Shown here in pieces: positions 6,028 through 53,128 of a DNA stretch of 64,000 bases. How positions within the stretch are numbered: position 1 is the first letter of the stretch; the number at the start of each line of letters is the position of its first letter. The stretch is from Hyphomicrobiales bacterium. Its GTDB lineage: Bacteria > Pseudomonadota > Alphaproteobacteria > Rhizobiales > Rhizobiaceae. The notes under the pieces were generated by a model. The model was not told where the DNA came from and did no database searches. It worked only from the letters and a program-made list of their open reading frames with translations. Location of the stretch: the NCBI GenBank assembly GCA_012842935.1, contig DUSC01000022.1, positions 1-64,000 on the forward strand, in the 5' to 3' direction. The position numbers and the translations under genes were made by a program.

Positions 6028-6298
6028 TGCGCCCCACATCGAAAGTCTGATCGCCGCCTCTTCGCAGCGCAGCATTTATGCCAATTCACCGGCTAGAACT
6101 ATTCTAGGAATTTCTCTATATGCCACACAACCGTGCCAGCGGTCGGTACGGGAACGAACTTGCGCCGGACCAGCGCACCCCTTCGCCAGATGGTGGTGCC
6201 GCTCGGGAGCGGAAAGCGGAAATGGCCGTACCCGCACCTTTGCGCGTGATTCGAGCATGCCACAGGAGTCCGTTCCCGCTCAGGCTGAACAGACCAGG

Positions 6299-41454: not shown

Positions 41455-42102
41455 TCACCCTCCGGCGGCGCGCCGGGAAGGCTCCAGATTTCGAATGTCG
41501 AGGATCACCCCTTCCGGCTCGATCCTGCTTCGGTGTTCTACCAGATCGAACCGCCAGTGATCAGCGCTTTCTTCGAGCTCGCTTCGGTAATCCCGACCTT
41601 TGTGAAATAGGCCGCGGGCGCCCGCAGTAAGCCATGGCGACGCCAGGTCCAGCAATTTCGGTAGCGCCGCGAGGGCACGCGCCGTCACGACCTGCGGCGC
41701 CGCTATTACGCCCGGCAGGTCTTCGATCCGCCGCGCGTGGACGCTTGCGACACCGGTTCCGCCGACCGCGGACTGCAGGAACGCCGCCTTCTTCCGGTTG
41801 CTTTCGACCAGGTCGATCCTCGCCCCGGGACGTTCACGCAACAGGATCGCCAGGACGACTCCCGGAAAGCCGCCCCCCGAACCGAGGTCGAGCCATCGCA
41901 GTTCGTTCGGCGCCAGACGCGCCAACTGCGCGCTGTCGAGGACGTGCCGCGACCACAGATCGTCGATGGTCGAAGAGGCAACGAGATTGATTCGCGCGTT
42001 CCATTTCACGAACGCCAGCACGAATTCCTGCAGCCGTTCGTATGTTTCACGTGAAACAGGACCGACGACATCCCGCAAGCGATCGAGATCCACCGGGCTC
42101 AC
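41455..42102 (-). CDS. rsmG: 16S rRNA (guanine(527)-N(7))-methyltransferase RsmG
   Basis: [63 protein letters not shown]. Confidence 0.97.
42043..42058. promoter_or_regulatory. parS centromere site (exact 16-mer)
   Basis: TGTTTCACGTGAAACA, inside the 5' part of rsmG (encodes the VSRET segment). Confidence 0.95.
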
Positions 42103-44013: not shown

Positions 44014-44029
44014 TGTTTCACGTGAAACG
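44014..44029. promoter_or_regulatory. parS site (one mismatch)
   Basis: TGTTTCACGTGAAACG in the mnmE-mnmG intergenic region. Confidence 0.85.
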
Positions 44030-44051: not shown

Positions 44052-44067
44052 CGTTTCACGTGAATCA
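44052..44067. promoter_or_regulatory. Degenerate parS-like site (two mismatches)
   Basis: CGTTTCACGTGAATCA overlapping the 3' end of mnmE, 38 bp from the previous site. Confidence 0.6.
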
Positions 44068-48885: not shown

Positions 48886-49434
48886 TCAGAACGGCTTTAC
48901 GATCACGAGGATGACGATGACGATCATCAACAGAGTCGGCACCTCGTTTACGATGCGCCAGTGTCTCGGCAGCCGGGCGTTCCTGTCTTCGGCAAACAGC
49001 CGCACAGCCCGAGAGAGATAGCCGTGAACGCCCGAAAGCAGCAGCACCAACAGGATCTTAGCGTGCAGCCAACCACCCGTCAGGCCGAATCCCGTCCACG
49101 CAAGCCATAGACCGAGAACCCAGCTCACCACCATCGCGGGATTGATGATCGCCCGCAGCAATCGCCGCTCCATGACCTTGAAGGTCTCTGACTGCGGCGA
49201 TCCGACCGGCACTTCCGCGTGGTAGACGAAGAGCCGCGGCAGATACAACATGCCTGCCATCCACGCGATCACCGCGATGACATGGAGCGCCTTGATCCAG
49301 AGATAGAGATCGCGCGGAGCTAGCCAGAACAGCAACGCCGCAAGCCCGACGAAGATGACGACCGCCACCGCTGCCCGACGCGCTGCCCCCGTTCCGCCAT
49401 GCGTCGTTTGTCCGGCCGGCCCGTTCATCGCCAC
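48886..49434 (-). CDS. hemJ: Protoporphyrinogen oxidase HemJ (CopD-like membrane protein)
   Basis: [46 protein letters not shown]; adjacent to hemE. Confidence 0.93.
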
Positions 49435-50456
49435 GCTCCCCTGACGCGCTTCAGCATCCGCTCGACGTTCTCGACGGGCGTCTCCGGCGTGATGCCGTGA
49501 CCGAGATTGAACACCAGCGGACCCTCGCCGAGCGCCTCCAGGATCGAATCGACGCCCGAATCGAGTGCCGACCCGCCCGCCACCAGGCGCATCGGATCGA
49601 GGTTTCCCTGCACCGGCCCTCCTTCCTGAAGCCGTCGCGCCTGCGAAAGCGGCACGGTCCAGTCCAGTCCCAGCACCGATACGCCGGTCTTTTCCCGGTA
49701 GTCGTCAAAACGGCTGCCCCCACCCTTCGGAAACCCGATAACCGGGACTCCGGGATGCACCGACTTGACCTTTCGCACGATCGCTGCGACCGGCGCTACG
49801 CAATAGGCATCGAATGACGCCTCATCGAGCACCCCCGACCACGAATCGAAAATCTGTACCGCATCCGCTCCGCTGTCTATCTGCCGGATCAAATACTCCG
49901 CCGAACATTCGGCAATCGTTTCGAGCAGCCCCTTCATCGCCTCCGGATCGCGGTATCCGAACAGCCGCGCCGGCGCCTGGTCTGTCGTGCCGTGTCCCGC
50001 AATCATGTAGGTCGCAACTGTCCAAGGCGCGCCGCAGAAGCCGATAAGCGTCGTCTCTGCCGGCAGTTTCTGCCGCAGTTCCCGCACCGTTTCATAGACC
50101 GGCGAGAGATTCACGTGAAACCTTTCCCGGTCGAGCCGACCGACGTCAGCCGGGGATATCGGCGACATGATCGGACCGCGCCCCTCCTCGAAGCGCAGGT
50201 CGCGACCCATCGCATGCGGAACCACAAGGATGTCGGAGAACAGGATAGCAGCGTCGAATGCGAACCGCCGGATCGGCTGTAGCGTCACCTCGACCGCGAG
50301 TTCGGGATTGTAGCAGAGATCGAGAAAACTGCCGGCTCGCTTGCGTGTCTCCCGATACTCCGGGAGGTAGCGGCCAGCCTGGCGCATCAACCAGATCGGT
50401 GGCGGGAACCGCGTCTCCCCCTTGAAAACCTGCAGGACCTTCCGTTCGTCGTTCAT
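49425..50456 (-). CDS. hemE: Uroporphyrinogen decarboxylase
   Basis: [64 protein letters not shown]; start at MNDERKV. Confidence 0.97.
50107..50122. promoter_or_regulatory. Degenerate parS-like site in hemE
   Basis: AGATTCACGTGAAACC, retains the TTCACGTGAAAC core; three mismatches or more to the 16-mer. Confidence 0.35.
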
Positions 50457-50852
50457 GCTCCACCTTTCCGGAAGATTCCGAAATAGAACCGAATCCATAA
50501 GAGTCTTCTGATTCTAAGACTCTGTCGGAATCGGGAACCAGCGGTTTCCCACATTTTGCCTCGGCCGAAAACCGCAGCGACGCTGCCGAGGTCGATGCAC
50601 GAAGCCCTGTGAATAATCCGGACAATGACGAAAACGGACGCAACTCCAATCGCTTGGAGAAATGTCCGGAGCAGTCTTCGATGACAGCCGAAAAGGCCGA
50701 TCTTTCGCTCGCACACTATTCACAACATCGCCGAGGCCCGTCTGCAAGTCGCCGTGATTGTGGACAAACCCACACCCGCATACATTCGGGCGAGCCGCAG
50801 CGCGCCAGCACCGCCCTTTATCCACACCGACGCACAGCATCCGACGAAACCT
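50457..50852. other. oriC: Candidate chromosomal replication origin (oriC)
   Basis: hemE/ppsR(DUF299) divergent intergenic region; DnaA-box-like 9-mers at 50545 TTTCCCACA, 50608 (-)TTATTCACA, 50716 CTATTCACA, 50759 (-)TTGTCCACA, 50818 TTATCCACA, 50852 (-)TTGTTCACA; six GANTC sites in 50474-50532. Confidence 0.85.
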
Positions 50853-51674
50853 GTGAACAAGACCCAGAGCTTCTTCCATCTCCACCTCATCTCTGACGCC
50901 ACCGGCGAAACCCTCCTTGCAGCCGGCCGCGCCGCTTCGGCGCAATACAAGGATGCCCGCGCCATCGAACATATCTATCCGCTGGTACGGACCGAAAAGC
51001 AGCTTCAGAAGGTTTTCGAGGAGATAGACAGCGAGCCCGGCATCATCCTCTACACCATCGTCGACCAGAATCTTGCGCGGCTCATAGACGAGCGCGCCGG
51101 CACGATGGGCTTGCCCTGTGTGTCCGTGCTCGAACCGGTCCTGTCGGTGTTCCAGTCCTATCTCGGCACGCCGGCCGGCCGGCGTGTCGGCGCCCAGCAT
51201 GTCCTCGACGCCGATTACTTCCGGCGCATCGATGCGCTCAACTTCACGATGGAACACGACGACGGACAGATGCCGGGCGACATCGACGACGCCGACATCG
51301 TCATCATCGGCATATCGCGAACGTCCAAGACGCCGACCAGCATCTATCTCGCCAATCGCGGCATCAAGACGGCCAATATCCCGATCGTACTCGGTGTCCC
51401 CATGCCCGACGAGTTGATCAGGGCGAAACGGCCTTTGATCGTCGGCCTGATCGCGACGGCAGAAAGGATCTCCCACATACGCCAGAACCGGCTGCTCGGG
51501 ACCGCCGGGGCATACTCGTCGGCCGATTACGTCGATCGTGCCACGATTGCCCAGGAACTGGCCTATGCGCGACAGATCTGCACCCGCCACAACTGGCCGA
51601 TGATAGACGTCACACGGCGCTCGATCGAAGAAACGGCGGCGGCCATCGTTGCGTTGCGCGGCAAGACGCGTTAG
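50853..51674 (+). CDS. Pyruvate, water dikinase / PEP synthase regulatory protein family (DUF299 kinase-pyrophosphorylase)
   Basis: [69 protein letters not shown] start inferred. Confidence 0.95.
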
Positions 51675-52296: not shown

Positions 52297-53128
52297 GGCT
52301 GTGAACAAGGCCTTCGTTTGCGGTCACCCGATCGCCCACTCGCGATCGCCGAAAATTCACGGCTACTGGCTTAAGACCTACGGCATCGACGGTTCCTATG
52401 TGGCGATCGACGTGCCGCCCCAGGCACTTCGCGGCTTCATCGAAGACCTGCGCAGCGGCGCATTTGCGGGAGGCAATGTCACCTTGCCCAACAAGGAGGC
52501 CGCGTTTCTCCTTGCCGACAGGCACGACGCCGCAGCCGATGCGATCGGAGCGGCCAACACGCTATGGGTGGCTGACGGTCTCGTCCATGCCTCGAACACC
52601 GATTCCTACGGATTCGCCGCCAACCTCGACGAGAACGCACCTGGGTGGCACCGCGGACGAATCGCCGTCGTACTGGGAGCCGGAGGCGCCGCGCGAGCCG
52701 TCGTCCACGCATTGAAGGAACGCGGCTTCGCCGAGATCCGTATCGTCAACCGCACCGTCGTCCGCGCAGAGGAACTCGCCGACCGCTTCGGGGCGCGGGT
52801 GTCGGCGCATCGGTTCGACGCCTGCCGTGAGCTCTGCGCCGATGCCGATTTGCTCGTCAACACGACATCCGTCGGCATGTCGGACGACCGCGGTATTCCG
52901 GCCGACCCGGCCTGGCTGCCGGATCGGGCGCTCGTAACCGACATCGTCTATGTCCCACTCGAGACGCCCCTGCTTGCCGCCGCCGGGGGCCGCGGCCTGA
53001 AGACCGTCGACGGTTTGGGCATGCTTCTCCATCAGGCTGTTCCGGGATTCCAGCGCTGGTTCGGCAGGCGCCCGGCCGTGACGAAGGAACTTCGCGACTT
53101 GATTGTCAGGGACATCCAGCAACGATGA
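52289..53128 (+). CDS. aroE: Shikimate dehydrogenase
   Basis: [71 protein letters not shown]; start chosen at MVEAVNK. Confidence 0.96.

Follow-up and report, generated by a model that had tools for sequence, protein, structure and literature searches.

We analysed a 64-kb stretch of DNA (the window) from a host that, judged from its named relatives, belongs to the Rhizobiaceae, close to Mesorhizobium. NCBIfam profiles identified hemE on the minus strand and ppsR on the plus strand, and this confirms the flanks of the non-coding gap of about 400 bp that an earlier sequence-only reading had proposed as an origin of replication (Table 1). That reading had also placed all genes from parB to hemE, except yyaL, on the minus strand and those from ppsR to dnaQ on the plus strand. 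The gene strands agree with this: parB, parA, rsmG, mnmG, mnmE, rho, hemJ, and hemE are on the minus strand with yyaL on the plus strand, and ppsR, maf, aroE, coaE, and dnaQ are on the plus strand, followed after dnaQ by secB on the minus strand. Part of these neighbouring gene names came from reading the translations and the remainder from NCBIfam profile matches.

The order parS/parAB/rsmG/mnmG/mnmE/rho to the left of the origin is the standard alphaproteobacterial arrangement. The parS sites form a centromere cluster adjoining parAB, 6.5–8.5 kb left of oriC. There was no Rfam match to an RNA gene in the origin region, and no plasmid relatives of this region were found in PLSDB.

Table 1. 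Features of the hemE–ppsR locus. Coordinates are those of the window; identities of DnaA boxes are means over an alignment of 19 relatives.
Feature	Coordinates	Strand	Basis or remark
hemE, uroporphyrinogen decarboxylase	49425-50456	-	NCBIfam TIGR01464, 412.9 bits; ATG at about 50456
oriC, hemE–ppsR intergenic region	50457-50852		NCBIfam flanking genes, conservation, skew, strand-motif switch
ppsR, PpsR/DUF299 (RP001, COG1806) regulator gene	50853-51674	+	NCBIfam NF003742, 342.5 bits; GTG at 50853
Candidate DNA-unwinding element (DUE)	50472-50531		Lowest 50-mer stability between hemE and ppsR
Six GANTC sites in 59 bp	50474-50532		Starts at 50474, 50491, 50501, 50510, 50518, 50528
Inverted repeat AGAGTCTT-ctgattct-AAGACTCT in the element	50500-50523		Not kept as a palindrome in relatives
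Near-invariant element TTCTGATTCTAAGACTCTGT (family form TTHTDWTTMTWWGASTCKGT)	50506-50525	+	Conservation, single copy, fixed spacing to ppsR
One-mismatch DnaA box TTTCCCACA, adjoining the element	50545-50553	+	Weakly conserved, 0.68
Exact DnaA box TTATTCACA	50608-50616	-	Not conserved, mean identity 0.51
One-mismatch DnaA box CTATTCACA	50716-50724	+	Weakly conserved, 0.62
One-mismatch DnaA box TTGTCCACA	50759-50767	-	Conserved, mean identity 0.88
Exact DnaA box TTATCCACA	50818-50826	+	Conserved, mean identity 0.80
One-mismatch DnaA box TTGTTCACA, overlapping the ppsR start codon	50852-50860	-	Conserved, 0.86, partly coding-constrained
Perfect parS TGTTTCACGTGAAACA	42043-42058		Within the rsmG start region
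Two near-perfect parS-like sites	44014-44029, 44052-44067		Between mnmG and mnmE

Strand asymmetry, DnaA boxes, and identity of the region

The host genome is a MAG of 4.03 Mb in 310 contigs and its GC skew was computed over the 64-kb window. The cumulative minimum was at 52,984, which is 2.3 kb from oriC. As a comparison, we examined two complete Mesorhizobium chromosomes where hemE–ppsR is at 814–821 kb (L029) and 949–956 kb (L016). The skew in both is noisy and agrees only roughly, with local minima at 867 kb and 829 kb, respectively. Within about 100 kb of hemE–ppsR in these two chromosomes, the motif GGGCAGGGC switches from mostly the minus strand to mostly the plus strand. A second motif, GGGNAGGG, had four matches in the window and was uninformative.

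All six DnaA boxes listed in the sequence-only reading, two exact and four with one mismatch, were found where it had put them. The two exact matches to TTWTNCACA in the origin region are the only ones in the whole window; shuffled windows contained a mean of 0.38, and 6 of 100 shuffles reached two anywhere. With up to one mismatch allowed, 6 of the window's 15 matches are within the 0.4 kb of the origin, where about 0.1 is expected from the shuffle mean of 17.4 such matches per 64 kb. The sequence TTATNCACA occurs eight times in the 4.03-Mb MAG and the origin is the only place with two copies within 220 bp. Both exact boxes are thus present as claimed, but the one at 50608 is not conserved. 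Across 110 loci that were compared, the length and content of the region are conserved. The intergenic length is about 390–410 bp in most Rhizobiaceae and the box array is kept as well.

The experimentally mapped origin of Caulobacter crescentus, Cori, also lies between hemE and a COG1806/DUF299 gene (PMC1914354), and it resembles the region studied here in its flanking genes, its length of about 400 bp, its DnaA boxes, and its AT-rich stretch. For Cori, PMC1914354 reports five DnaA boxes along with five CtrA sites and a single IHF site. Unlike in Cori, searches of the origin region at up to one mismatch gave no match to the CtrA patterns TTAA-N7-TTAA or TTAACCAT and none to the IHF pattern WATCARNNNNTTR, so that control as in Caulobacter should not be taken for granted here.

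Because the gene neighbourhood, skew, strand-motif switch, conserved length and boxes, and a unique element in the least stable DNA all agree, the intergenic region between hemE and ppsR is the chromosomal oriC, as had been proposed, and we have hardly any doubt on this point. Its place and its neighbouring genes make it an ordinary addition to the hemE-type alphaproteobacterial origins. The origin itself was therefore expected; what is new is a near-invariant putative DUE that is rich in methylase sites.

A single-copy element in the least stable DNA

The most conserved 20-mer of the region, above any DnaA box, is TTCTGATTCTAAGACTCTGT, with 13 of its 20 columns invariant in 19 sequences. A degenerate pattern for it, TTHTDWTTMTWWGASTCKGT, matched once and only once in 195 of the 299 family genomes sampled, and the reversed control pattern had no matches in the same 299. 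For the 104 genomes where the pattern is absent, candidate causes are divergence, missing contigs, and reductive genomes. A stricter pattern was found once in each of 9 of 41 relatives spread over genera. In a set with one locus per genus and hemE starts estimated by alignment, the element is 339–368 bp from ppsR (sd 4 bp) and 28–120 bp upstream of hemE (sd 48 bp). It is about 230 bp away from the conserved DnaA boxes, and the box-like sequence adjoining it (TGTCGGAAT) is a poor DnaA box.

In a 50-mer stability model, the stretch around the element ranks second in instability among the loci of the 64-kb window, behind only a 50-mer outside the origin (6073–6122, CATTTATGCCAATTCACC...TCTATATG). 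When loci from relatives were compared, the least stable 50-mer was centred about 10–20 bp from the conserved element in 94 of 95. From this instability, together with the conservation, the box-side spacing, and the single copy, we infer that the AT-rich stretch with TTCTGATTCTAAGACTCTGT at its core is a candidate DUE. The earlier reading was correct about the boxes and oriC, but it had omitted the GANTC cluster near hemE, which is the putative unwinding side. We did not find the element or its coincidence with the least stable DNA in the open literature searched; subscription papers, such as Shaheen 2009, were outside this search. One exact match to the element in IMG/VR (L193:718-737), on an AT-rich, phage-like contig that carries neither hemE nor ppsR, was judged to be due to chance.

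We compared this element with known unwinding sequences. The basal unwinding system, which consists of a DnaA box, a spacer, and DnaA-trios (PMC8287927), is resembled by other alphaproteobacterial orders. Runs of at least three T[AGT]G near hemE, a definition other than the published permissive rule of (.A.){3,}, occurred in 17 of 35 genera of other orders versus 0.9 in shuffled sequence and were often followed by TGTGGATAACGGGGAT. In the first 200 nt from hemE, such runs occurred in none of 16 Rhizobiaceae genera and in 1 of 11 other families of the order, and a strict DnaA-trio reading of the element was rejected on the Rhizobiaceae result. Triplet runs of [CT]T[AT] in the opposite reading were found in 6 of the 16 Rhizobiaceae genera versus 1.1 expected. 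In the Rhizobiaceae, the T-rich GANTC element occupies the place of the trio runs. Many loci from other orders (L153–L192) have an AT-rich stretch, GANTC, T[AGT]G runs, and TGTGGATAACGGGGAT in the first 120 bp or so from hemE. In several of them (L155, L158, and L182), GANTC lies right next to the first DnaA box (GANTC-C-TGTGGAT, read as GANTCCTGTGGAT).

The DUE-R1 part of Escherichia coli oriC is similar in having a T-rich melting strand and repeats with sites for a cell-cycle adenine methylase, and in both cases a TGTGGATAA-type box flanks these repeats on the same side. We confirmed the E. coli DUE-R1 segment with GATC beside box R1 in 4,813 genomes. By contrast, the E. coli methylase (Dam) is unrelated and the repeat is another one, and here only a poor box adjoins the element. 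The likeness appears to be one of layout and not of common descent, and we do not claim homology. Within the same family, repABC ori2 and pTi origins also have GANTC-rich replication regions (PMC6090056, PMC11514494). However, these are RepC-dependent origins of secondary replicons, whereas the origin region here had no match in PLSDB.

GANTC sites at the candidate DUE

Over the window, GANTC, the site methylated by the cell-cycle enzyme CcrM, is depleted two-fold (186 observed versus 383 expected). The MAG encodes a CcrM-type methylase (384 aa, with a RAMA domain) and GcrA, and the depletion is consistent with an active CcrM/GcrA system. To compare relatives, we took the 100 bp of lowest stability in each region and set its GANTC count against that of dinucleotide shuffles. 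There were 37 sites versus 9.3 ± 2.6 in 16 Rhizobiaceae genera, 18 versus 5.1 ± 2.1 in 11 other families of the order, and 31 versus 14.2 ± 3.3 in 35 genera of other orders; the sampled genera are related, so these counts are not independent events. None of seven other palindromic 5-mers used as controls was enriched in the other families or the other orders. In the Rhizobiaceae group only AGNCT among them clearly exceeded its shuffles, as a fixed sequence would lead one to expect. For Caulobacter origins, several GANTC motifs are reported in PMC3973325, which cites Shaheen 2009.

The individual sites behave differently. A GANTC adjoins the element upstream in 34 of 49 distinct elements. At this site N varies (G in 13, A in 11, T in 8, and C in 2) and GA and TC are fixed, as selection on the methylase site itself would predict. 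The downstream site is GA[C/G]TC in all 49 elements and never GA[A/T]TC, so something besides CcrM constrains it. Both the upstream and the middle sites are lost in some genera. A RAMA-domain match was present in 50 of 52 sampled genomes, and of the remaining two one (G350, L156) retains GANTC in the region, these negatives being too few to weigh. In a genome of another order (G320, L192), three tandem GANTC (GAATCTTAGATTCTAAGATTCTG) that closely resemble the element occur upstream of a ppsR that has no adjacent hemE.

How the origin may open and what the element may do

These data support a joint reading, to which we give a probability of roughly 0.85, in which the region is a DnaA-dependent Rhizobiaceae oriC that opens at the hemE-proximal, GANTC-bearing stretch with TTCTGATTCTAAGACTCTGT as its core. 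DnaA-ATP would assemble mainly on the three conserved boxes near ppsR, and melting would start about 230–350 bp away, in the AT-rich stretch at 50472–50531. Passage of the fork would then leave the six CcrM sites hemimethylated, and they would stay so until the late activity of CcrM, so that recent firing would be recorded in the melting region. Sites near the origin are described as remaining hemimethylated longest, with CcrM acting late (PMC3973325, PMC11514494).

There are several ways to read the GANTC sites in such an origin. One that we take seriously, although we give it somewhat less than an even chance, is that GANTC is incidental and that what is selected is an AT-rich sequence recognised by DnaA or a different initiator factor. 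The limitation of N to C or G at the GASTC site fits this idea, as do the many family elements of the TTCTATTTCTTAGAGTC type that retain few GANTC. However, N varies at the upstream site, and the enrichment over dinucleotide shuffles extends to other orders where the sequence differs.

It is also conceivable, although we consider it unlikely, that CcrM methylation of the DUE gates initiation once per cycle. The hemimethylated element would resist melting or DnaA loading, or bind a sequestering protein, and full methylation by CcrM would lift the block, comparable to the Dam sites in the E. coli 13-mers. That methylation alters melting or DnaA loading is speculative. It would account for the composition-controlled enrichment of GANTC at the DUE in three nested groups and for the upstream site, where GA and TC are conserved and N is not; in E. 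coli, GATC is likewise within the melting repeats of the DUE-R1 segment. Work cited in PMC3973325 found extra chromosomes in Caulobacter on CcrM overexpression. On the other hand, the downstream site is always GA[C/G]TC so that CcrM is not its sole reader, and the upstream and middle sites are missing in some genera. The published data from Agrobacterium and Caulobacter argue against strong gating. In Agrobacterium, itself one of the Rhizobiaceae, depletion or overexpression of CcrM leaves the timing and number of ori1 essentially unchanged and affects ori2 instead (PMC11514494), and Caulobacter without ccrM has normal DNA content after rifampicin (PMC3973325). It is equally doubtful whether a T-rich element with CcrM sites, present in single copy, has taken over from the canonical DnaA-trio in the Rhizobiaceae, with its hemi- versus full methylation tuning opening or DnaA loading.

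A slightly less probable idea than the gate is that the region is oriC but that the GANTC element is a promoter or operator of hemE under the control of GcrA and CcrM. In Caulobacter, promoters are located inside Cori. In the one-per-genus set, 28–120 bp separate the element from hemE downstream of it, the MAG has a gene for GcrA, and it is known that GcrA binds DNA in a manner dependent on adenine methylation (PMC3667746). However, there is one copy of the element per genome and no regulon, and its distance is fixed relative to ppsR and variable relative to hemE. No sigma-70-like promoter was predicted in 50300–51000, in a model that alphaproteobacterial promoters match poorly, and other orders are enriched in GANTC at the same spot despite a different surrounding sequence. 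Least probable by a wide distance is that the region is no chromosomal origin at all and that its boxes and conservation exist because DnaA regulates the transcription of hemE and ppsR; DnaA boxes can serve as operators and one overlaps the ppsR start, but the skew, the switch of the strand-biased motif, gene order, DUE-like instability, and the known location of Cori converge against this.

Under the joint reading of a DnaA-dependent oriC that opens near hemE, an element that two thirds of the genomes sampled from a large family carry in single copy is a precise candidate for the site where rhizobial chromosomes open. In practical terms, TTHTDWTTMTWWGASTCKGT can be used as a sequence tag for oriC in fragmented Rhizobiaceae genomes. 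If the element does tune opening through its methylation, it would be an independently evolved alphaproteobacterial counterpart of the E. coli 13-mers with their Dam marks, and the dependence would be relaxed in some genera, Agrobacterium among them. Two old questions, what makes CcrM essential in many alphaproteobacteria and whether GANTC methylation has any bearing on initiation, could be reduced to 20–60 bp.
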